Positions 2-10,207 of a stretch of 40,339 bases of DNA are shown piece by piece. Position numbers and translations under genes: made by a program. Source of the stretch: Clostridiales bacterium. Its GTDB lineage: Bacteria > Bacillota > Clostridia > Lachnospirales > Lachnospiraceae. Under the pieces are notes generated by a model. The model did no database searches. It worked only from the letters and a program-made list of their open reading frames with translations, and had not been told where the DNA came from. Where the stretch lies: contig JAAZDK010000057.1 of the NCBI GenBank assembly GCA_012512855.1, positions 1 through 40,339 on the forward strand, read 5' to 3'. Numbering within the stretch: the first letter of the stretch is position 1; the number at the start of each line of letters is the position of its first letter.

Positions 2-793
2 CCGAGGACACTTGCTATCATCTTATATGGCGATCTGGATATATCAATTGTGGATGAGCTGCCTGCCAACAGGCTGCCTATAAAAAACTGTGTGGTGGAT
101 ACGAGCTATTATCCCAGTGCCTACAGATTTATCAGCAAGCAGGTGGAGCAGGGCAGGCAGGCTTATGTTATATGTCCTATGGTTGAAGAGAGCGAGGAAA
201 TAGAGGCTGAAAATGTCATAGATTATACTCAGCAGCTGAAGGAAACGCTGAGCCCCGGTATTACGGTTGAGTATCTCCATGGTAAGATGAAGCCCAAGGA
301 AAAGAATGATATTATGGAGAGGTTTGCAGAAGGTAAAATTCAGGTGCTGGTATCTACAACAGTTGTTGAGGTAGGAGTAAATGTACCCAATGCAACGGTA
401 ATGATGGTGGAAAATGCCGAAAGATTTGGCCTGGCCCAGCTTCATCAGCTAAGAGGTCGTGTCGGTAGAGGGCAGCACCAGTCATATTGCATCTTTATAT
501 GCCAGAGCAGCAGCCGGGAGGCTTGGGAGAGGCTTCAGATACTAAATAAATCCAATGATGGCTTCTACATTGCCGGCGAGGATCTGAAGCTGCGGGGACC
601 GGGTGATATATTTGGAATCAGGCAAAGTGGCGATATGGATTTCAAGCTGGGAGATATATTTACAGACGCTGGTCTGCTAAAGGCGGCGGCAGAAGCGGTA
701 AAAAGCCTGACGGATGCCGAGGCGGATGCCGTATTTGAGGCAAATCCTTATCTTGAGGAGAAGCTGTTTAGCAGGAGCTTTGATACACTATAA
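2..793 (+). CDS. recG: ATP-dependent DNA helicase RecG, C-terminal part (5' truncated by window edge)
   Basis: The reading frame is open from base 2, ahead of the first internal ATG at 50, so the gene enters from the left edge; 263 residues are visible. RecG is a superfamily 2 DNA translocase that remodels stalled forks and Holliday junctions. The visible part starts in helicase motif III (PRTLA, followed by YGDLDIS). It continues through helicase domain 2 with the LHGKM segment, STTVVEVGVNVP (motif V) and QLRGRVGRG (motif VI), and ends in the C-terminal RecG wedge-contact region (GEDLKLRGPGDIFGIRQSG). The N-terminal wedge and the Walker A and B motifs lie outside the window. In many Clostridia recG is followed by rsmD and coaD; here they are separated by about 12 kb. 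Confidence 0.97.
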   Translation, partial: PRTLAIILYGDLDISIVDELPANRLPIKNCVVDTSYYPSAYRFISKQVEQGRQAYVICPMVEESEEIEAENVIDYTQQLKETLSPGITVEYLHGKMKPKEKNDIMERFAEGKIQVLVSTTVVEVGVNVPNATVMMVENAERFGLAQLHQLRGRVGRGQHQSYCIFICQSSSREAWERLQILNKSNDGFYIAGEDLKLRGPGDIFGIRQSGDMDFKLGDIFTDAGLLKAAAEAVKSLTDAEADAVFEANPYLEEKLFSRSFDTL

Positions 794-840
794 TATAAGT
801 ATCAAAAATCATGATATAAACTAACGTAAAGAGGGATATC

Positions 841-1830
841 ATGGGAATTGATTTAGAATATAACAGAAATAAAGACTCAAAGCTTTCTCTGGTGATTCCG
901 GTCTATCAGGAGGGAAGCCATATCAGAAGCAGTATTGCCAAAATTGAAAATGTACTGGTGAGCAACAAGATCAGATATGGCTTTATTCTGGTGGATGACG
1001 GCTCAAGGGATAATACCTGGTCAGAGCTAAAGGATATGGCTCGGCAGAATAATAATATTACCGCCCTGCGTTTGAGTCGCAATTTTGGCAAGGAGTCGGC
1101 TATCTGTGCAGGCCTTGATTATGCGGACGGAGATATGGTTATTGTTATGGATGCCGATTTGCAGCATCCGCCGGAATTGATTCCCGAGATGGTAAAGGCC
1201 TGGAGAGATGAAGGCTATGATGTTGTGGAAGGGATTAAAAAGTCCAGAGGCAGGGAAAATCCCTTTTACAGGTTCTGCGCCAAATTCTTTTATTACATTA
1301 TATACAAAACTGCGGATATTGATTTGGGACAGGCTTCTGATTTTAAGCTAATGGACCGCAGAGTGGTGGAGGCCTGGAAGGAGCTGCCGGAGAGGGCTAC
1401 CTTCTTTAGGGGGATGTCCGCATGGTTGGGATATGACAGGAAGCAGATTCCCTTTGATGTGGCTGAGAGGGTCAACGGCAAAAGCAAGTGGTCGCTTATC
1501 AGACTGATAAGGCTGGCGGTAAATGCCATAACCTCATACACCTCGGTACCCCTTCATTGCATAACGGTGCTGGGGATGCTGATGTTTGTGGGAGCTATAA
1601 TTCTGGGCATCCAGACCCTGTATATGAAGTTTTCCGGCAGGGCATTGAGTGGCTTTACAACAGTTATCCTGCTGTTGCTTATCATTGGCAGCTCTCTGAT
1701 GATAAGCCTTGGTATGATAGGGATATATCTTAGCAAAATATATAAGGAAGTTAAGCATAGACCAAGATATCTGGTAGCAAAGAGCATTAATGCGGATGAT
1801 GGCAGGAGCGGCAAACAGGAGGCTTTATAA
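841..1830 (+). CDS. GT2 glycosyltransferase, GtrB/DPM1-like, with two C-terminal membrane segments
   Basis: A 329-residue family 2 glycosyltransferase. The N-terminal GT-A fold has the nucleotide-sugar motif VDDGSRDNTW (residues 51-60) and the metal-binding DAD in MDADLQHPPE (104-106). Two hydrophobic helices follow at about 236-262 and 271-298. This is the architecture of polyprenyl-phosphate glycosyltransferases (GtrB, CsbB and bacterial DPM-synthase relatives), which load one sugar onto undecaprenyl phosphate on the cytoplasmic face. The sugar cannot be read from sequence. A GAGGGA ribosome binding site precedes ATG 841. The stop codon overlaps the next start by one base (taATG), so translation is probably coupled to the large membrane protein downstream, the natural partner that would use the lipid-linked sugar. 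Family call is firm, donor and acceptor are unknown. Confidence 0.9.
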   Translation: MGIDLEYNRNKDSKLSLVIPVYQEGSHIRSSIAKIENVLVSNKIRYGFILVDDGSRDNTWSELKDMARQNNNITALRLSRNFGKESAICAGLDYADGDMVIVMDADLQHPPELIPEMVKAWRDEGYDVVEGIKKSRGRENPFYRFCAKFFYYIIYKTADIDLGQASDFKLMDRRVVEAWKELPERATFFRGMSAWLGYDRKQIPFDVAERVNGKSKWSLIRLIRLAVNAITSYTSVPLHCITVLGMLMFVGAIILGIQTLYMKFSGRALSGFTTVILLLLIIGSSLMISLGMIGIYLSKIYKEVKHRPRYLVAKSINADDGRSGKQEAL

Positions 1831-3932
1831 TGCTTGGACTGATATATATTTTATTATCTATAGGAATAGGCTGGGTCATTTGCTTATATGCATTCCCAAA
1901 TCTTGCTGATCTGGCAGGCGTTGATTGTTATAAGCGAAGGCTAGAGCTTAGTCCGGTATTATTATTGATTCCGGCCTGGTTTATAAGCGGTGTGCTGGCC
2001 ATGACCTGGCTTGTCTATATATTTGCCTACCTTTTCAGAGGTGCCTCCTCTCCTTTGTTTTATGCCAATCTGCTGGTAATGCCTATAGCAGCCTTGATCT
2101 TTATTTTGACGCTGGTCAGAAGGGTGTATGCCAAAAGGAGAGCTAACCAGGCGGCTTTTGGAAAGGATGGCTCATTGGTACTGCTTTGTGGCAGCAGAAG
2201 AGTACTGTGCCTTGAGCTGCTGCTATTTGGTGCCGTTATTTTATTGGCTTGCATCCTTATGTGGAGAACCTTCTTTGTAAGTGACGGCAAATTGCATGTG
2301 GGTCTGACGGTTTTCAGTGATTTTTCGCCCCATATCGGAATGATCAGATCCTTTTCCTACGGCAATAACTTTCCCACCTCATATTCCCATTATGCAGGTG
2401 AGGATATCAGATATCATTTTATGTTTCAGTTTATGGTGGGCAATCTGGAGTTTCTGGGGCTGAGGCTGGATTATGCCTTTAACCTGCCCAGCATAATGTG
2501 CTTTGTAGTTGTCTTTATGCTGCTTTATGTACTGGCCCTTAAGCTTACGGGAAAGCAGGGAGCCGGTATTTTCGCCTGCCTCTTTTTTGCCTTCCGCAGC
2601 TCCAAGACCCTGTATACATTTTTAACCGGGATAAAGCCGCATGAGGGAATTATCAAAACCTTAAGGGAAAATACAGCCTTTATATCGGATACGCCCAATG
2701 AGGACTGGGGCTTGTGGAATCTGAATGTTTATTGCAACCAGAGGCATCTTGCCCTGGGGCTTGCGGTAATGTTTTTTATCCTGATATTGTATATCGGGCA
2801 TCCCTTTGATATGTATCAGAGATTGAAGACAGACAGTCAGGCAGGCAAAAATAAAGACAGAAGCCTCCTTACAGGATGGCTCTGGCAAGGAGCTAAGGCA
2901 CTATTCTTCAGCAGGGAGGGCTGGCTGGCAGCAGATCTGAGGACCAGCATTGCTGCCGGAATTTTGCTGGGAAGCCTGGGCTTTTTTCATGGAGCGACAT
3001 TGATAGGATGCATACTGGTGCTTTTTGTGATGGCGATAATATCCTCAAGAAGGCTGGAGTTTTTGATTACCGCGCTTATTACCATGGCCCTTTCCTTTGC
3101 CCAGACATCCTTCTTTATTGATGGCTCGGCCGTATCCTTTCAGCCCTTCTTTGGCTTTATAGCCGAGAATAAAACCCTCTTTGGTGTCTTGTCCTATCTT
3201 GAGCGCCTGCTGGGGGTTTTGCCGGCGGTTCTTATGGTGGCATTTTGCATTGAAAATGGAGTGGGCAGATGGATGATGCTGGCCTTTGCAGCTCCGCTTT
3301 TATTTGCATTTACAGTATCTCTTACGGTTGATGTTACGGTAAACCACAAGTATATTATGATGAGCTGTATTCTGCTGTCGATATATGCGGCAGGTTTAAT
3401 AATGCGCCTGCTTAAAAGTGGCAAGTATATGGTCAGGGCGCTGGGAGTACTGCTGATTTTCATGCTGACAGCAACAGGAGTATACGATTTTTGTACTGTT
3501 ATAAAGAGAAACGAGCCCAAGTCGGCGATAATACTTGACCTTGACAGTCCTCTGACCGAATGGATTAAGAATAACAGCGATTCAAAAGATATTTTCCTGA
3601 CCCACAGGTATGCCTTAAACCAGGTTGTGCTGGGTGGGGCCATGCTTTATGAGGGATGGCCGTATTTTCCCTGGTCGGCAGGCTATGATACGGACAGGAG
3701 GGAGCAGCAGGTTATAGCCATGTATGAGGCCAAAAGCCCGGAAGAGCTTGACCGGTTGGTGAAGGCCAACAATATAAGGTTTATAATAGTTGACTATGAT
3801 AACCGCAGCAGCGATTATTACACAGTCAATGAGGAGAATATAAAAAACAGCTATGAATGTGTCTACACTGAAGGCGATGGTGAATATAAATTATCAATCT
3901 ATGATGCAGATAAGCCGATAAACAGGCAATAA
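1830..3932 (+). CDS. Large polytopic membrane protein, GT-C-like, distantly related to the DUF2298 protein at 5902
   Basis: A 700-residue protein with roughly a dozen hydrophobic segments and a soluble C-terminal domain of about 130 residues. I do not recognise a named family with certainty. After the first membrane segments there is an acidic loop motif (DFSPH, then MIRSF) followed by an aromatic stretch (SHYAGEDIRYHFMFQ). The same order of features occurs in the DUF2298 protein three genes downstream (DYGFMTSMLRS, then LNYYYLGQ). NVYCNQRHLALGL also lines up by position with GDLHAHVVNI of that protein, and NHKYIMMSC with KRANTMFKL. An acidic residue in the first outer loop is typical of GT-C glycosyltransferases, which use lipid-linked sugars. 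The C-terminal domain (LTHRYALNQVVLGG, then ANNIRFIIVDYD) resembles the extracytoplasmic tails of such enzymes. Role in sugar transfer is inference. Confidence 0.7.
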   Translation: MLGLIYILLSIGIGWVICLYAFPNLADLAGVDCYKRRLELSPVLLLIPAWFISGVLAMTWLVYIFAYLFRGASSPLFYANLLVMPIAALIFILTLVRRVYAKRRANQAAFGKDGSLVLLCGSRRVLCLELLLFGAVILLACILMWRTFFVSDGKLHVGLTVFSDFSPHIGMIRSFSYGNNFPTSYSHYAGEDIRYHFMFQFMVGNLEFLGLRLDYAFNLPSIMCFVVVFMLLYVLALKLTGKQGAGIFACLFFAFRSSKTLYTFLTGIKPHEGIIKTLRENTAFISDTPNEDWGLWNLNVYCNQRHLALGLAVMFFILILYIGHPFDMYQRLKTDSQAGKNKDRSLLTGWLWQGAKALFFSREGWLAADLRTSIAAGILLGSLGFFHGATLIGCILVLFVMAIISSRRLEFLITALITMALSFAQTSFFIDGSAVSFQPFFGFIAENKTLFGVLSYLERLLGVLPAVLMVAFCIENGVGRWMMLAFAAPLLFAFTVSLTVDVTVNHKYIMMSCILLSIYAAGLIMRLLKSGKYMVRALGVLLIFMLTATGVYDFCTVIKRNEPKSAIILDLDSPLTEWIKNNSDSKDIFLTHRYALNQVVLGGAMLYEGWPYFPWSAGYDTDRREQQVIAMYEAKSPEELDRLVKANNIRFIIVDYDNRSSDYYTVNEENIKNSYECVYTEGDGEYKLSIYDADKPINRQ

Positions 3933-3961
3933 TTAAGATAAAAAACTTTGGAGGTAGCATT

Positions 3962-5056
3962 ATGCATTACAAATATTTAGTGGTGGGTGCAGGATTGGCA
4001 GGCTTGACTATGGCTGAACGCATCGCCAACGTTCTGAATGAAAAGGTACTTGTGGTTGAGAGACGTTCTCATATTGGAGGAAATGTATACGACTCCTACA
4101 ATGAGGATGGTATACTTATCCATAATTATGGGCCTCACATTTTCCACACCAATGACAGGGGGGTATATGAATACCTTTCCGGCTTTACAAAATGGCGGGA
4201 TTTCTGGCACAGAGTCCTTACCTATGTTGACGGCAATCTTATTCCTATGCCTATTACTGTGGAAACCATAAATAAGCTGTACAATCTCAATCTTAACTGC
4301 TTTGAGGTAGAAGACTTTTTAAGGAAGCAGGCTGTTGAGCTTGATGAGATAAAAACCAGCAAGGATGTGGCCTTAAGCAAGGTGGGGCCGGATATATATG
4401 CAAAGATTTTTGAAAATTATACCAGGAAACAGTGGGGGATTGATCCGGCAGAGCTTGATACCTCGGTGATATCAAGAATTCCTGTAAGAACCAATCGTGA
4501 TACCAGGTATTTTAATGACAAGTATCAGGGAATGCCTCTGCACGGCTATACAAAAATGTGTGAAAAGATGGCAGCCAGCAAAAATATAAAGATACTGCTT
4601 AATACCGATTACAGGGAAATAGTTGGTGACATCTCATATGATGTCATGATATACACAGGAGCGGTGGATGAGTTTTACAACTATAAATATGGCAGGCTGG
4701 CCTACCGCAGCATTAAATTTGTCTTCGAGACCTATGATACGGAAAAATTTCAGGAGGCCCCTGTTGTAAACTATCCCAATGACTATGACTATACCAGAAT
4801 AACGGAATACAAGCAGCTGACAGGCCAGGTACACCATAAGACCACCATCAGCAAGGAATTCCCTTATGATGGCGGAGAGCCTTATTATCCCTTCCCGACA
4901 GCGGAGCACAGGAAGCAGTATGAGATGTATGCGGCAGACATGGCAAAGGAGGAGAACATTATCTTCATCGGACGACTGTCCGAGTACCGCTATTACAACA
5001 TGGATGCGGTTGTCAGAAGGGCACTGGATGAATTTGAAAAGCTGAGGAAAAGGTAA
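3962..5056 (+). CDS. glf: UDP-galactopyranose mutase
   Basis: This 364-residue flavoenzyme interconverts UDP-galactopyranose and UDP-galactofuranose in the cytoplasm and supplies the donor for galactofuranose-containing surface glycans. The N-terminus carries the FAD Rossmann motif (VVGAGLAG, residues 7-14) with the acidic end of strand 2 (VVERR). The Glf-specific segment NYGPHIFHT lies near residues 55-63, and the C-terminus has the GRLSEYRYYNMD signature. Length is normal for bacterial Glf (about 365-385). A GGAGG site precedes ATG 3962. It sits between the two large membrane proteins and directly before the second GT2 gene (8-base gap), which argues that galactofuranose, or another sugar handled by the cluster, is assembled by its neighbours. 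Family assignment is firm. Confidence 0.96.
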   Translation: MHYKYLVVGAGLAGLTMAERIANVLNEKVLVVERRSHIGGNVYDSYNEDGILIHNYGPHIFHTNDRGVYEYLSGFTKWRDFWHRVLTYVDGNLIPMPITVETINKLYNLNLNCFEVEDFLRKQAVELDEIKTSKDVALSKVGPDIYAKIFENYTRKQWGIDPAELDTSVISRIPVRTNRDTRYFNDKYQGMPLHGYTKMCEKMAASKNIKILLNTDYREIVGDISYDVMIYTGAVDEFYNYKYGRLAYRSIKFVFETYDTEKFQEAPVVNYPNDYDYTRITEYKQLTGQVHHKTTISKEFPYDGGEPYYPFPTAEHRKQYEMYAADMAKEENIIFIGRLSEYRYYNMDAVVRRALDEFEKLRKR

Positions 5057-5063
5057 TATAATT

Positions 5064-5789
5064 ATGGACAAGTTATATATTATAATACCTGCATACAATG
5101 AGCAGGAGAATATTAAAAATGTTATAAACGACTGGTATCCTATTGTGGAAGAAATAGGTAATGAAAGCAGGCTTGTCATAATAGATGACGGAAGCAAGGA
5201 TGCGACCTATCAGATTATGCAGGAGGCAGCAAAGGGACTTGCTGCCTTTGAGCCTGTAACAAAGCCCAATGGTGGTCATGGGGCGACAGTCCTGTATGGA
5301 TATAAATACGCCATTGAGGCCGGTGCTGATTATATATTCCAGACCGACTCAGACGGACAGACCCTGCCTGATGAATTCTGGCAGTTTTGGGAGATGCGCG
5401 AAGATTACGACATGGTTATCGGTCAGCGAAAAGGAAGGCAGGACGGCCTGGCCAGGGTATTTGTAACAAAGGTGCTGAAACTGGTATTGCGGCTCTGCTT
5501 CCATGTAAATATCCCGGATGCCAATACTCCCTTCAGGCTTATGAAGGCGTCCAGATTAAAGGAGCAGATAGGCCTTATTCCTGACAATTATAATCTGTCC
5601 AATGTATTGATTTCGGTAATCTATGCAAAAAAAAGGCTGGCGGTCAAGTATCTGCCGATCACCTTCAGGCCGAGGCAGGGAGGTACCAATTCAATAAACA
5701 TGAAAAAGATTATCAGGATAGGCAGGAAGGCCTTTAAGGATTTCAGACATATCAACAGGTATTTAAACTATGCTGTGAAGTCAGTCTAA
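5064..5789 (+). CDS. GT2 glycosyltransferase, soluble dolichyl-phosphate-mannose-synthase-like
   Basis: A 241-residue family 2 glycosyltransferase without obvious membrane helices. It has IIIPAYNEQENI at the N-terminus, IIDDGSKDAT (nucleotide binding, DDGS at 41-44), the N-G-G-H-G-A segment near 69-74, and the metal-binding DSD of QTDSDGQT (95-97). The later DANTPFRLMK and FRPRQGGTNSIN motifs are typical of DPM1/DPG-like enzymes. It probably transfers a sugar from a nucleotide donor to polyprenyl phosphate or a lipid intermediate at the membrane surface. It starts 8 bases after glf, so the two are almost certainly co-transcribed. It differs from the 841 enzyme in lacking the C-terminal helices, so the cluster may charge two different lipid-linked sugars. 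Donor is unknown. Confidence 0.9.
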   Translation: MDKLYIIIPAYNEQENIKNVINDWYPIVEEIGNESRLVIIDDGSKDATYQIMQEAAKGLAAFEPVTKPNGGHGATVLYGYKYAIEAGADYIFQTDSDGQTLPDEFWQFWEMREDYDMVIGQRKGRQDGLARVFVTKVLKLVLRLCFHVNIPDANTPFRLMKASRLKEQIGLIPDNYNLSNVLISVIYAKKRLAVKYLPITFRPRQGGTNSINMKKIIRIGRKAFKDFRHINRYLNYAVKSV

Positions 5790-5901
5790 AGCCATGATTT
5801 AATTATCACGATTTAATGGGAGCATTTTTTTAAGTATTAACTGGAAATATATGGACGATAAAATACATGTTTTTTGATTAAACGAAAGGCATGATTGAAT
5901 T

Positions 5902-8202
5902 ATGAAAAGAGTAATTAAATGTGTTACTTATCTGATATTGGCCGCAGGAGCGCTTATGGCCGGAAAATTTATGCTGCAGGAGGATTTTATATCCTTTATA
6001 AAATGGTGGCTGACCATATTGTATTTGGGAATAATCTTTATGCCTTTGACCACATGGATCTTTGGCGGTTTTCATGATAAGGGCTACTTGTTTTCAAAGG
6101 CTATAGGCCTGGCTGTTAGCGGATACCTGATCTGGCTTGCGGCTTCTCTGCATCTGATGCAATTTAATACCCTTAACTGCCTGATATCCGTAATGGTATG
6201 TCTGCTATTAAATCTGATGCTCCTGTACTGGAGAAAAAGGAGCAGCAGGGCAGGCTTGCTAGATATGCTGCATAATCTGGCGAACAGCCTTGATGCCATG
6301 TTGGGCGAGGAGCTGCTCTTTTTGATATTGTTTTTGTTATTTGTATATATCAGGGGCTTTAAACCGGAGGCATATGGTACGGAAAAATTTATGGACTATG
6401 GCTTTATGACCAGCATGCTCAGGTCTGAGTATATGCCTCCGCAGGATTTCTGGTATTCCGGTACCAGTCTGAATTATTATTATCTGGGACAGTATCTGGC
6501 CACATTTATGACCAGGATATCCTTTGTTAAGGTAAGTGTGGCCTACAATCTTATGCTGATGATGGTGGGAGCTTTGGCGGCAACTCTTCCCTATTCGATA
6601 GTTTATAATGTTATTCTGCAATATATAAAGGATACAGGTAAAAAAAGCAGATTCCTGCCTCCTGCCTCCGGAGTAATGGCGGGTATAGCGGTATGTATTG
6701 CAGGCAACATGCATTATCCCACATATAAATGGTTTGAGCCTCTGGTGCGTAAATTTTTCGGAATGGAAAAGGGCACATACAAATACTGGTTCCCGGATGC
6801 AACCCGCTTTATAGGCTATCATCCCGAAACCAATGACAAGACAATACATGAGTTTCCCAGCTATTCCTTTGTTCTGGGGGATTTGCATGCCCATGTAGTG
6901 AACATAATGTTTGTACTTACCGTGGTAGGAATATTGTTTGCCTGGATGGTAACAAGAAGGAAAAATGACGCTAGTAAATACACATTGACCAGGGAGCTTT
7001 TAAATCCGGCTATTATACTGATTTCATTTTTTATTGGCTTTTTCCGCATGAGCAACTATTGGGACTTTCCGATTTATTATGTTGTAAGCGGGGCTGTTAT
7101 TCTATTTACCAATCTGGTGGTATATAATTTTAAGGGAAAAGCTATACTTGTCGTTACTGCCCTGCAGGGAGTCTTTGTTATGGGGATAAGCGCCATAGTG
7201 AGCCTGCCTTTTATGATAAGCTTTGATAAGATTGCGACGAATATTTGCCTGACAGTAGCACGTACTCCCCTTAATCAGCTGATAATACTTTGGGGCTTGC
7301 CATATTTTATTATTTTTTCATATATTTGCTTCATGATAACTGATATAATTAAGAATAGATATAAGTCGGCTTTGGTTACGGAAGCAAACGACAGTAAGCC
7401 GGTAAAGGGCCAGACTGTCAGGAGGATATTTTTGGAGCTTACTCCCTCTGATTTGTTCATCATTACCCTGGGGCTTTGTGCAGCAGGCCTGGTACTGCTT
7501 CCGGAGCTTGTCTATGTAGAGGACATTTACAGCGGAGACTATAAAAGGGCAAACACAATGTTTAAGCTGACCTATCAGGCATTTATCCTCTTTGGTATCT
7601 GCATTGGCTATATTTTATTACGCCTTATGGTATACGGAGGAACATGGAAGCGTATCAGATATTCTCTGGCAGGACTTGTGCTTTTTGCCATGACAGTATG
7701 CTATTCCCAGAATGCCGTAGGGGCCTGGTACGGCAATATCTTTAAACCGTCGGGCTATGAGGGGTTGGATGCAACAGCCTTCATGTACAAGGAAATGCCT
7801 GAGGATATGGCTGCGATAGAATGGCTGAATGCCAATATTTCAGGAATGCCTGTAGTCCTTGAGGCAAACGGAAACAGCTATACAGATTATCAAAGGGTAT
7901 CCGTAATGACCGGTCTTCCTACAATTCTTGGATGGAGAACACATGAATGGCTGTGGAAATCGGATGAAGAAAAGGTTAAGTTCAGAGAAGCCATAGTGGA
8001 GAGGATTTATTGCTCTGCAGACGAGAGTGAAGTAAGAAGCCTCCTTGAGGAATACAAAGTTTCTTACATTTATGTCGGAAATCTTGAGCGGGAGAAATTC
8101 CCTCTGATTAATGAGGATTTAATCAGGAGGCTGGGCAGGAAGGTGTATTCCGGCGTTGGAACAGACGGAAACGAAACCTATATAATAGAGATAGATAAAT
8201 AA
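5902..8202 (+). CDS. DUF2298 (Chlor_Arch_YYY) polytopic membrane protein, putative GT-C glycosyltransferase
   Basis: A 766-residue protein with many membrane helices. It shows the hallmarks of DUF2298: a triple-tyrosine motif (LNYYYLGQY, about residue 190) and HEFPSYSFVLGDLHAHV, with the His-Asp-His-rich loop typical of the family, followed by FFRMSNYWDFPIYY. Further on are VYVEDIYSGDYKRANTMFKL and a C-terminal extracytoplasmic domain of about 130 residues that starts near the EWLNANISGMPVVLEANG segment. DUF2298 proteins are uncharacterised; they resemble GT-C enzymes that use polyprenyl-phosphate sugars. The neighbourhood (two GT2 genes, glf, a similar polytopic protein) fits extracytoplasmic glycan assembly. 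ATG 5902 has an AAGG site at a rather long spacing of 12, so translation may be modest. A 112-base gap separates it from the upstream gene, with no clear terminator. Confidence 0.85.
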   Translation: MKRVIKCVTYLILAAGALMAGKFMLQEDFISFIKWWLTILYLGIIFMPLTTWIFGGFHDKGYLFSKAIGLAVSGYLIWLAASLHLMQFNTLNCLISVMVCLLLNLMLLYWRKRSSRAGLLDMLHNLANSLDAMLGEELLFLILFLLFVYIRGFKPEAYGTEKFMDYGFMTSMLRSEYMPPQDFWYSGTSLNYYYLGQYLATFMTRISFVKVSVAYNLMLMMVGALAATLPYSIVYNVILQYIKDTGKKSRFLPPASGVMAGIAVCIAGNMHYPTYKWFEPLVRKFFGMEKGTYKYWFPDATRFIGYHPETNDKTIHEFPSYSFVLGDLHAHVVNIMFVLTVVGILFAWMVTRRKNDASKYTLTRELLNPAIILISFFIGFFRMSNYWDFPIYYVVSGAVILFTNLVVYNFKGKAILVVTALQGVFVMGISAIVSLPFMISFDKIATNICLTVARTPLNQLIILWGLPYFIIFSYICFMITDIIKNRYKSALVTEANDSKPVKGQTVRRIFLELTPSDLFIITLGLCAAGLVLLPELVYVEDIYSGDYKRANTMFKLTYQAFILFGICIGYILLRLMVYGGTWKRIRYSLAGLVLFAMTVCYSQNAVGAWYGNIFKPSGYEGLDATAFMYKEMPEDMAAIEWLNANISGMPVVLEANGNSYTDYQRVSVMTGLPTILGWRTHEWLWKSDEEKVKFREAIVERIYCSADESEVRSLLEEYKVSYIYVGNLEREKFPLINEDLIRRLGRKVYSGVGTDGNETYIIEIDK

Positions 8203-8288
8203 CTGCATCAAAATTAAAAGACTAATTCTGCAATATAACCGATATTCGGACCAAAAATATCTTGCATCAAATTTTGAGGAGTGACAAA

Positions 8289-9626
8289 ATGAAAAGAAGC
8301 TTAAATGCTCTGACTGCTTTACGTGGGCTGATATTGCTTTTTCTGCTTGCCTGTATGCTGATTTTTAGCAGGAAGGAGGCAGATGCAAAGGAAAAAAGCG
8401 AGCTGCCATATCTGATAAAGGTAAACAGGGCCTGTAATACCGTAACCATCTATGAAAAGGATGAGAAGGGCAAATATACCGTGCCTGTAAAGGCTATGGT
8501 TTGTTCGGTGGGAACAGGAACAAGGACATTGACCGGCAGCTTTTCTACAAAGGAAAAATACCGCTGGAAGCTGCTGAACGGCAATGTATGGGGACAATAT
8601 GCCACAAGGATAGTGGGCGGAATTCTTTTCCATTCCGTATACTATTATGGTAATTGCGATCCTTCCACCCTGGCTACAAAGGAATATAACAAGCTGGGAA
8701 CGGCGGCTTCCCAGGGCTGTATCAGGCTGACGGTAGCGGATGCCAAATGGATATATGATAACTGCCCGATAGGAACCCAGGTCATTATTTATGATGATAA
8801 GAACAATCCGGGACCTCTTGGAAAGCCTGAACCGATAACCCTGCCCTTAAATGTCAGATGGGATCCGACAGATCCCAACGAGAAGAATCCATATAAAAAT
8901 AAAATGCCTAAAATAACCGGAGCCAAAAATATTACGGTAAATTACGGTGAAAAAGTTGATCTTAAATCAGGCGTTAAGGCAGTGTCATCCCTCGGTGCCG
9001 ACATTACTGCAAAGCTGCAGATTGAAGGTGATATTGACTACAAAACACCGGGGAAATACAAGATTACATACACAGTAACGGACAATCTGAACCGGGAGGC
9101 TAAAAAAACAATTACAGTTACAATAAAGGGTAAGCCTAAGGATGCTGCTTCTGAGTCAATAGCTGCATCAGTAATACCTGTGATCAGGGGAGTCACTGAC
9201 AGGGTAGTAAATAAGGATATCGACAGGGAGCTGGTTTTGGCCGGCATAGAGGCATCATATAACGGCAAAGCGGTAGACAGTAAGAATATTGAAGTGCAAA
9301 TTAATGAGAGCGGCGAAAATGAATACCGGATTATTTACAGGCTTAGCTGTGACGGCAAGACGGTAACTGAGCAGGCCAGGTTTTATCTTGATAAGCAGGC
9401 TCCACAGATAAACGGGGTCAGCGACCTATATCTTGAGAAAGGCGAGATACCGAGTGAGGGGGTTTTACTGGAGAGTATCAGCGTAAGCGACAATTTTTCC
9501 GATAAAGAAAAAATAAGGCTTAGGGTTACTTTAGTGGAGAATGAAGACGGCAAAATGCTGGCGGTTTATGAAGCTATGGATGAGGCAGGAAATATAGCAG
9601 TAAAAGAAGCGAGCATTTTATATTGA
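8289..9626 (+). CDS. Secreted L,D-transpeptidase (YkuD) with C-terminal Ig-like domains
   Basis: A 445-residue exported protein. I start it at ATG 8289 because GAGGAG lies 7 bases upstream; a TTG at 8262 in the same frame has no site of its own. A hydrophobic signal or anchor segment covers about residues 12-26. The YkuD domain follows (about 42-173), with His115 in ILFHSVYYYG and the catalytic Cys144 in SQGCIRL. The usual motif is SHGC; the His to Gln change is a tolerated variant in some families. These enzymes make 3-3 peptidoglycan cross-links or attach proteins to the wall. From about 205 on there are two or three beta-rich modules of the DUF5011/Ig-like type (for example TPGKYKITYTVTDN and QAPQINGVSDLYLEKGE), probably for wall spacing or binding. 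It lies directly after the glycosylation cluster. Confidence 0.9.
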   Translation: MKRSLNALTALRGLILLFLLACMLIFSRKEADAKEKSELPYLIKVNRACNTVTIYEKDEKGKYTVPVKAMVCSVGTGTRTLTGSFSTKEKYRWKLLNGNVWGQYATRIVGGILFHSVYYYGNCDPSTLATKEYNKLGTAASQGCIRLTVADAKWIYDNCPIGTQVIIYDDKNNPGPLGKPEPITLPLNVRWDPTDPNEKNPYKNKMPKITGAKNITVNYGEKVDLKSGVKAVSSLGADITAKLQIEGDIDYKTPGKYKITYTVTDNLNREAKKTITVTIKGKPKDAASESIAASVIPVIRGVTDRVVNKDIDRELVLAGIEASYNGKAVDSKNIEVQINESGENEYRIIYRLSCDGKTVTEQARFYLDKQAPQINGVSDLYLEKGEIPSEGVLLESISVSDNFSDKEKIRLRVTLVENEDGKMLAVYEAMDEAGNIAVKEASILY

Positions 9627-9676
9627 TAAAACATATCATATGATATGATTAAGAAATTAAAGGGGAGATCTTACAT

Positions 9677-10207
9677 ATGATATCAATTAAGGTGAAAAGC
9701 AGAAGTGTAGATTTAACGGATTTGGCATCCTGGTTTTTCATATACAGCTTTTTTGGCTGGATATATGAAACCATCTACTGCTCTCTGACAGAGGGACATT
9801 ATGTAAACCGTGGCTTCCTGTACGGACCCATAATTCCTATATATGGCTCATGTATAGTGTTTGCAATTGTATTGCTATATGAAAAGAAAATTAACAAGAT
9901 AGCCTTATTTGGAATATGTGCCTTTATTGCCTCCGCCTTTGAATATGTGACCTCCTGGTGGATGGAACTCATATTTAACAGAAGATGGTGGGATTATTCC
10001 AATGAGCTATTTAATATAAACGGCAGGGTATGTCTTGGAGCGGCTTTGGTTTTCGGCCTGTTCGGTGTTCTGATTTTATGCTACTTCCATCCTTTTTTAG
10101 AGAAGTTCCTTAATGAATGTGTACCGCCAAGGTTAACAAAAGCATTACTTAAAATTTTTATGCCCTTGTTCACAATTGATCTTTTGGCTTCAATAATAAG
10201 TGCATAA
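9677..10207 (+). CDS. Putative ABC-transporter type IV / CmpB-family membrane protein (PF06541-like)
   Basis: A 176-residue membrane protein with about five hydrophobic segments. The N-terminal FFIYSFFGWIYETIYCSL and the following GHYVNRGFLYGPIIPIYG are the signature of the small family named putative ABC-transporter type IV (CmpB), common in Clostridia and Firmicutes gut isolates. The SWWMELIFNRRWWDYS segment is also typical. No nucleotide-binding domain is encoded nearby, so the transporter name is not supported by this sequence and the function is unknown. A GGGGAG site precedes ATG 9677. The gap to the transpeptidase gene is only 50 bases, so the two may be co-transcribed. A weak AT-rich hairpin (AAATGC at 10221-10226 with GCATTT at 10235-10240) follows the stop. 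Confidence 0.82.
   Translation: MISIKVKSRSVDLTDLASWFFIYSFFGWIYETIYCSLTEGHYVNRGFLYGPIIPIYGSCIVFAIVLLYEKKINKIALFGICAFIASAFEYVTSWWMELIFNRRWWDYSNELFNINGRVCLGAALVFGLFGVLILCYFHPFLEKFLNECVPPRLTKALLKIFMPLFTIDLLASIISA

Follow-up and report, generated by a model that had tools for sequence, protein, structure and literature searches.

The window analysed here is a stretch of 40,339 nucleotides (positions 1 to 40,339 of contig JAAZDK010000057.1, from a Clostridiales bacterium assigned to the Lachnospiraceae), near the start of which a row of five genes, at 841-8202, encodes what is probably a lipid-linked multi-component transmembrane glycosylation system. The genes, and the upstream neighbour that is mostly retained with them, are as follows.

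841-1830, forward strand: GT2a, 329 amino acids (aa), a putative polyprenyl-phosphate sugar synthase of the GtrB/ArnC type within glycosyltransferase family 2 (GT2), a member mainly in the Herbinix group
1830-3932, forward strand: polytopic protein (PTP), 700 aa, predicted glycosyltransferase C (GT-C) fold, a DUF2298 homologue below the Pfam and NCBIfam cut-offs
3962-5056, forward strand: UDP-galactopyranose mutase (UGM) of a locus-specific subtype, 364 aa
5064-5789, forward strand: GT2b, 241 aa, a soluble GT2 resembling dolichol-phosphate mannose synthase (DPM) and ArnC
5902-8202, forward strand: DUF2298 protein (TIGR03662, Chlor_Arch_YYY), 766 aa, predicted GT-C fold
50-793, forward strand: 3' part of recG, matching RecG models, a conserved upstream neighbour outside the system

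The five open reading frames are co-directional, with coordinates that agree with those of the initial annotation, are separated in order by -1, 29, 7 and 112 bp, and are far longer than the longest stop-free run, 183 codons, in 100 mononucleotide shuffles of 841-8202. Family matches, together with hydrophobic segments numbering 2, 14, 0, 0 and 13 in gene order, bear out the earlier description of a membrane-anchored GT2, a soluble GT2 and two polytopic proteins. Promoter and terminator scans were uninformative (31 promoter sites against 28.2 in shuffles, and 10 terminators against 8.2), so operon structure is judged from the spacing only.

The transferases and their predicted folds

The product of 5902-8202 is a clear member of its family, scoring 598.8 bits against TIGR03662 (cut-off 300.25) over residues 28-745 of 766 and 387.1 bits against PF10060 (cut-off 27.8), whereas its PTP homologue is over neither model's cut-off, nor over any other in Pfam or NCBIfam (two chance-level matches in the former, 0 in the latter), and gave no match to PF10060 at E<=1 or to TIGR03662 at E<=0.1. 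Comparison of the two profiles with hhalign nevertheless gave a probability of 98.6 and an E-value of 4.9e-16 over 578 columns, and with one and the same script the real pair reached 97.8 against 0.2-3.6 for reversed or block-shuffled controls (6/6). The PTP profile alone finds the C-terminus of the window's DUF2298 protein (E 7.4e-5), and the PTP proteins of three other genomes (G547, G536 and G677) have a partial PF10060 match of 28.6-30.2 bits, just above the cut-off. By their profiles the two proteins are homologous, two members of one superfamily in a single cluster, a relationship that the initial annotation missed. A second, distant PTP branch consists of stand-alone proteins (710-718 aa; their motifs include TFGDMNLHLG) encoded at L237 (genome G748), L238 (G424) and L239 (G660).

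Searching solved structures by sequence yielded 0 matches for PTP; the DUF2298 search returned nothing beyond 2 triosephosphate isomerases with E-values over 0.5. Structural models, based like the residue counts below on alignments of 67 PTP and 56 DUF2298 rows from related genomes, have a mean pLDDT (predicted local distance difference test) of 92.8 with a pTM (predicted template modelling score) of 0.93 for PTP, and 92.7 with 0.94 for DUF2298. When the PTP model was compared with the PDB by Foldseek, 18 structures reached E<=0.001. By their titles 17 are GT-C enzymes or oligosaccharyltransferase (OST) complexes (DPY19, AglB/OST, PglB, AftA), and the other, 9n9j_I, is a chain of a secretory translocon that we take to be STT3A; AftD comes lower in the list (E 0.003-0.006), and no unrelated protein appears before E 0.12. 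With the DUF2298 model the same threshold admits 6 structures, each of them a GT-C enzyme (AglB, DPY19, AftA), the next, unrelated, being at E 0.042. By predicted fold both are GT-C proteins, as had been proposed for the two before any fold was computed.

D164 of PTP, which lies after helix 123-147, is aligned with D165 of DUF2298, Asp being present in 67/67 and 55/56 rows respectively, and H168, Y195 and H196 of PTP are, with D164, in 67/67 rows. With such an Asp in the first long loop both proteins fit, as modelled, the description of a polytopic GT-C transferase, and from the GT-C fold the loop would face outward. The sequence WWDYG, presumably the OST motif of the C-terminal domain, is in 0/67 PTP rows and 0/56 DUF2298 rows, which sets both apart from the OST class (STT3/AglB/PglB). 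At its place PTP has W-S-A-G-Y-D, with W615 in 66/67 rows and G618, Y619 and D620 in 67/67.

The same folds might also suggest that the acceptors of PTP and DUF2298 are secreted or surface proteins, glycosylated through O-, N- or C-linkage as by DPY19, OST or a Caldicellulosiruptor GT39 enzyme. The models do match DPY19 and the catalytic subunits of OST best; in isolation, the AglB C-terminal domain (3vu0) matches the DUF2298 model at a probability of 0.96-0.99, but at E 0.2-0.65; and very large surface-type proteins, possible targets for glycosylation, are encoded after the PTP-DUF2298 pair at two loci, one with TPAPTEE repeats (L133:5537-10972) and one with SpaA/FctA domains (L137:14332-19266). 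In Caldicellulosiruptor bescii, deletion of a single GT39 gene is reported to abolish protein glycosylation (PMC6151902). However, teichoic-acid GT-C enzymes obtain the same kind of structure matches from HHpred, according to a review (PMC8035078), so the fold matches of PTP and DUF2298 tell neither sugar nor acceptor; in addition, among the loci looked at no acceptor gene is constant, and the absence of WWDYG is again pertinent. Protein glycosylation is on balance an unlikely function.

The GT2a product has a PF00535 match followed by two C-terminal hydrophobic segments, and is matched by GtrB (sll0501, 5ekp) over residues 5-313 at 245.6 bits and by ArnC structures over 13-317; judged on sequence it would be a membrane-linked GT2 polyprenyl-phosphate sugar synthase. 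GT2b, also with a PF00535 match, has no hydrophobic segment, and matches ArnC (53 bits) and GtrB N-terminally and dolichol-phosphate mannose synthase over residues 3-224. That both resemble synthases of monosaccharide-phosphate lipids argues against PTP and DUF2298 polymerising a homopolymer, or using lipid-pyrophosphate oligosaccharides in place of lipid-phosphate monosaccharides, as does the lack of a phosphoglycosyl transferase or further glycosyltransferase among the eight scanned gene products of 50-10207. Though the fold matches include OST and AftA/AftD, and two related adjacent GT-C enzymes could start and extend a chain, such a role seems decidedly improbable.

Gene order among relatives

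Among titled genomes a scan identified 236 relatives, the best 80 of which were taken as loci L061-L140, with distant members under-sampled. In one sample of genomes PTP is in 33/34 of the genus (the window's own included), 1/27 of the rest of the family and 0/38 of the rest of the order. Titles of the best 80 are Herbinix, Mobilitalea, Lachnoclostridium, Lachnospiraceae, Caccomorpha, Clostridiales, Clostridia or Eubacteriales, except for L070 (SHOH01000001.1), titled Anaerolineaceae MAG4 (Chloroflexota), whose PTP and UGM fall inside the Herbinix group and whose record is probably mislabelled or misbinned. Named isolates with PTP are Herbinix hemicellulosilytica, Mobilitalea sibirica and Lachnoclostridium phytofermentans, and being cultured these are hosts in which function could be tested.

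Conservation of the gene order, proposed earlier as a check on the significance of the cluster, is complete close by and partial further out. Neither of the two outcomes that the initial annotation named as fatal to its reading, a gene order conserved nowhere and polytopic proteins unrelated to GT-C folds, was obtained. At the Herbinix/Mobilitalea-type loci (L061-L086) the order PTP-UGM-GT2b-DUF2298 is found in 18/18 with 5.5 kb of downstream sequence, GT2b thus standing between PTP and DUF2298 in every one, and recG with GT2a immediately 5' of PTP in 20/20 with 4.5 kb upstream. Among the more distant Lachnospiraceae (L087-L140) recG is retained upstream in 29/35 loci and GT2a in 1/35. DUF2298 follows PTP there in 28/35 by script, or 29/35 when L137, missed since its PTP and DUF2298 abut, is counted; 19 of the 28 have GT2b between the two, 6 have UGM, and 9 (10 with L137) have neither. 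The conserved core is PTP with DUF2298, mostly accompanied by GT2b, and UGM is an add-on in the distant Lachnospiraceae. Where that core is minimal, with PTP and DUF2298 only, a GT2b relative of 46-48% identity is encoded elsewhere in the genome in 10/10 genomes tested.

The remaining six of the 35 loci, those lacking DUF2298 downstream, are L106, L118, L120, L125, L127 and L128. At L106, L118, L125 and L127 PTP is near two genes that by eye are methionine-synthase-like, a tandem PTP pair is present in 3/4, and DUF2298 is not at the locus; the L118 genome has GT2b and DUF2298 together elsewhere (L281).

Wider co-occurrence was surveyed in 299 genomes from 298 genera of the family. DUF2298 is present in all 20 genomes with a strong PTP match and in 26 of the 279 remaining ones (Fisher p 8e-19, with related genomes treated as independent). 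The 20 are from 31 PTP matches in all, of which eight C-terminal-only ones (G581, G593, G608, G688, G721, G723, G725 and G773) were left out because each is in, or directly after, a DUF2298 match, and the weak two-ended matches in G748, G424 and G660 (100-125 bits) were also left out. In the 12 PTP-less loci of the family that were looked at, GT2b adjoins DUF2298 in 5.

Neither GT2 is tied to one GT-C partner. A strict GT2a-PTP pair is refuted by most distant loci having PTP without GT2a, and by family f45, which has a GT2a-like gene and DUF2298 with no PTP; a strict GT2b-DUF2298 pair is refuted by 7/12 of the PTP-less family loci having DUF2298 without GT2b nearby. In 23 genomes besides that of L086 no close orthologue of GT2a was found away from the locus, the best reaching 32-37% in 21 of them, and G496 and G509 giving weak partial matches only.

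The mutase and the question of galactofuranose

The window's UGM has a PF03275 match and, at 377 bits, passes the equivalog cut-off of TIGR00031 (303.75). Its closest solved relative by score is 3hdq (474 bits over 3-362), a UGM of the Deinococcus radiodurans type; other solved UGMs score 239-258 bits. On a tree the 38 locus UGMs, the window's included, and that of L227 make one fully supported group, and at a great distance from it are the 11 UGMs taken from other places in genomes of the family (the ten best-scoring and that of L229). L227 itself has recG (by Pfam), UGM, GT2b and DUF2298, and then genes that, like those for the PF03602 and PF01467 proteins downstream of the window's cluster, are presumably rsmD and coaD, which is the window arrangement minus PTP and GT2a.

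Used as query, the window UGM finds 13 of the 299 family genomes at E<=1e-120, and the 11 UGMs of 69-100% identity are all (11/11) directly before GT2b and DUF2298, with 9 also after PTP; the two of 59-60% identity are at other loci. Conversely, of 24 loci having UGM, DUF2298 and 5.5 kb downstream, 0 have UGM without GT2b. The UGM subtype is thus linked to GT2b-DUF2298 at the locus.

The opposite possibility is that UGM is a passenger, being the sole source of UDP-galactofuranose for an exopolysaccharide made elsewhere and present here by history, with GT2a, GT2b, PTP and DUF2298 moving other sugars (glucose, galactose or mannose). In each of the three genomes checked for this, those of L066, L086 and L090, no UGM besides that of the locus passes the cut-off, so that this one must also serve any other glycan containing galactofuranose (Galf). 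UGM is absent from 22/28 of the more distant Lachnospiraceae loci with DUF2298, and the PTP tree calls for 5 changes in whether the locus has UGM, 3 or more of them by well-supported branches. Nor does UGM track PTP at the level of the genome, a UGM over the cut-off being in 34/36 of the genomes behind PTP loci and in 269/299 family genomes, with no enrichment; given that control, genome-level presence was rejected as a sign of a Galf system. (In the Fisher comparison for 'any UGM', 18/20 strong-PTP genomes were scored as having one, by E-value and not by the listed cut-off.) These findings bear also against a private role of UGM in the system. Set against them are the confinement of the subtype to the locus, always directly before GT2b and DUF2298, and its separate clade. 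The passenger reading is possible without being the likelier one, and Galf as a sugar of the PTP/DUF2298 system, for which the linkage speaks, comes somewhat short of an even chance.

The initial annotation had the cluster built around galactofuranose supply, and in this it made UGM too central. What stands of it is that a UGM subtype is bound to the locus; what does not is a general dependence on the enzyme, given the distant loci that do without it and the prevalence of UGM in the family at large.

A different relationship of UGM and PTP was suggested by L064:9965-13222 (the genome being also that of L008), where PTP runs in frame into UGM to give one frame of 1085 aa. As UGM there keeps its own aaggag and ATG and the PTP tail is lost, this was rejected as a Rosetta-stone fusion; the joint frame, in what is one metagenome-assembled genome, is read as a stop loss and was left out of counts.

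A possible lipid-linked route, its flippase and known systems

GT2 proteins of the GT2a and GT2b types make polyprenyl-phosphate sugars, GtrA flips these, and GT-C enzymes use them outside. By analogy with these families, the cluster would work as follows. In the cytoplasm GT2b, at most loci, and in the Herbinix group GT2a as well, would load single sugars onto undecaprenyl phosphate. The lipid-sugar would then be turned outward by a flippase whose gene is outside the cluster, the simplest candidate being a GtrA protein. There PTP and DUF2298, in both of which the first long loop carries the conserved Asp and the C-terminal part is alpha/beta, would transfer the sugars onto an acceptor, at a guess some polymer of the wall or a protein that is secreted. 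UDP-galactofuranose would be provided, in Herbinix and certain of its relatives, by the locus-specific UGM, and since its gene is directly upstream of that for GT2b, the latter would most plausibly make polyprenyl-phosphate-Galf for DUF2298, the choice of Galf again being a guess. A multi-component system of this sort, with GT2 loading, GtrA-type flipping, paired GT-C transfer and UGM feeding GT2b, is the best reading of the locus and a probable one; a glycosylation system with several components was also what had initially been suggested.

Several points weigh against it, in addition to those on UGM and on fold matches given above. The TM-scores, by query length, are modest, at 0.33-0.45 for PTP and 0.34-0.43 for DUF2298. 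GT2b is far from every solved synthase (53 bits, residues 3-144). PTP and DUF2298 are close on one contig in only 13/20 of the strong-PTP genomes, being on different contigs in G037, G759 and G768 and split or fragmentary in G531, G547, G580 and G695 (the DUF2298 match is partial in G531, G580 and G695). Near DUF2298 neither GT2b nor a locus-type UGM is present in 7/12 PTP-less family loci, and in more distant families 6/6 DUF2298 loci are without any of the four remaining cluster genes in their vicinity. There is also no flippase gene in the five-gene cluster, though Wzx was not searched for.

On the last point, the initial annotation was correct that the cluster itself is without an exporter, but a candidate is encoded elsewhere. 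In the genome of the window a single GtrA gene is present, on a different contig (G000:C128), and GtrA is in 28/34 genus genomes, with none near PTP among the matches listed. In the wider class, DUF2298 surroundings were examined in 12 of the 26 genomes with a DUF2298 match. Family f31 (3 genomes examined of 4 with DUF2298) has, side by side in 3/3, a divergent PTP (607-614 bits), GtrA and DUF2298, with GtrA between the other two and DUF2298 divergently transcribed, and a GT2a-like gene in the 2 genomes whose contig continues. Sister-family GtrA and that of the window's genome have only 19-27% identity. In family f45 (3 examined of 5) DUF2298 is instead accompanied by a GT2a-like gene and a PF03706 membrane protein, which is possibly a stand-in for the flippase; this protein is at L145:12464-13435, L146:12883-13842 and L147:6402-7385, and PTP and GtrA were not seen there.

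In f31 and f45 a flavin amine-oxidase-type protein occupies UGM's place in the row beside GT2a and DUF2298, and in f31 PTP as well. Of the six, the 2 scanned with NCBIfam match NF005560 (PRK07233, annotated 'hypothetical protein') at 484 and 498 bits (cut-off 252), two more were identified by Pfam and two by N-terminus only. The NF005560 sites are L142:4980-6275 (G415) and L145:11157-12464 (G295), with likely counterparts in G289, G348, G252 and G206. The flavoprotein is possibly a sugar mutase of a new kind. A bolder proposal would combine that mutase with a dedicated hexofuranose machine, in which UGM supplies GT2b for polyprenyl-phosphate-galactofuranose, and DUF2298 and PTP found a GT-C superfamily transferring Galf plus a second sugar from GT2a; taken whole, this is rather doubtful.

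Among described systems, the likeness is to the multi-component transmembrane glycosylation systems of Gram-positive bacteria, such as CsbB-GtcA-YfhO, GtlA-GtcA-GtlB and GacI-GacK-GacL, where a GT2 polyprenyl-phosphate sugar synthase is joined with a polytopic GT-C transferase and where one flippase (GtcA, CflA) is listed as common to several pairs (PMC8035078). The present row departs from those in its GT-C component, a pair of homologues from the DUF2298 superfamily where those have YfhO or PMT-2 types, in having a UGM and an additional GT2 that is soluble, and in its lack of a flippase gene. For the furanose route the nearest idea may be the pentofuranose three-component systems (GT136), in which a lipid-carried furanose is passed to a GT-C enzyme outside (PMC11127046). 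Compared by description, those systems depend on a MATE flippase together with a polyprenyl phosphoribose synthase, whereas here the furanose-making enzyme beside the genes is UGM and the sugar perhaps a hexofuranose. The lactococcal wall polysaccharide with Galf, a Gram-positive wall glycan, likewise involves UGM (Glf) as well as GT-C enzymes and a lipid carrier; Galf is added there from UDP-Galf to a lipid-linked repeat unit exported by a Wzx-like flippase (PMC10821137).

Among the open-licence papers listed, none by its title concerns a characterised DUF2298 protein or this gene set, and none names TIGR03662; the gene set is real and conserved and, as far as found, uncharacterised. DUF2298 ranges over Clostridia, two archaeal control genomes and, by TIGRFAM name, Chloroflexi. 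For it the locus provides a predicted fold, a catalytic-residue candidate and partners: a GT2 that is soluble, another transferase homologous to it, sometimes UGM and, in one family, GtrA. Were polyprenyl phosphate to carry Galf, a further furanose route would stand beside those for arabinose and ribose.

As to the flanks, the cluster follows the C-terminus of recG, and downstream are an L,D-transpeptidase, a PF06541 protein, citrate synthase (PF00285) and the PF03602 and PF01467 proteins. In many Lachnospiraceae an AAA ATPase (PF00004 with PF17866) with a long N-terminal part is encoded directly upstream of PTP or GT2a, as at L087, L119 and L140 by domain scan and at L090, L095, L098, L101, L103, L111, L112, L120 and L124 by similar ends. 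Neither this ATPase nor the PF06541 protein is constantly present, and both were dropped as parts of the system. The L,D-transpeptidase with its Ig-like domain (8262-9626 in the window) and the small PF06541 membrane protein (9677-10207) come after the cluster in many, not all, of the genus loci.

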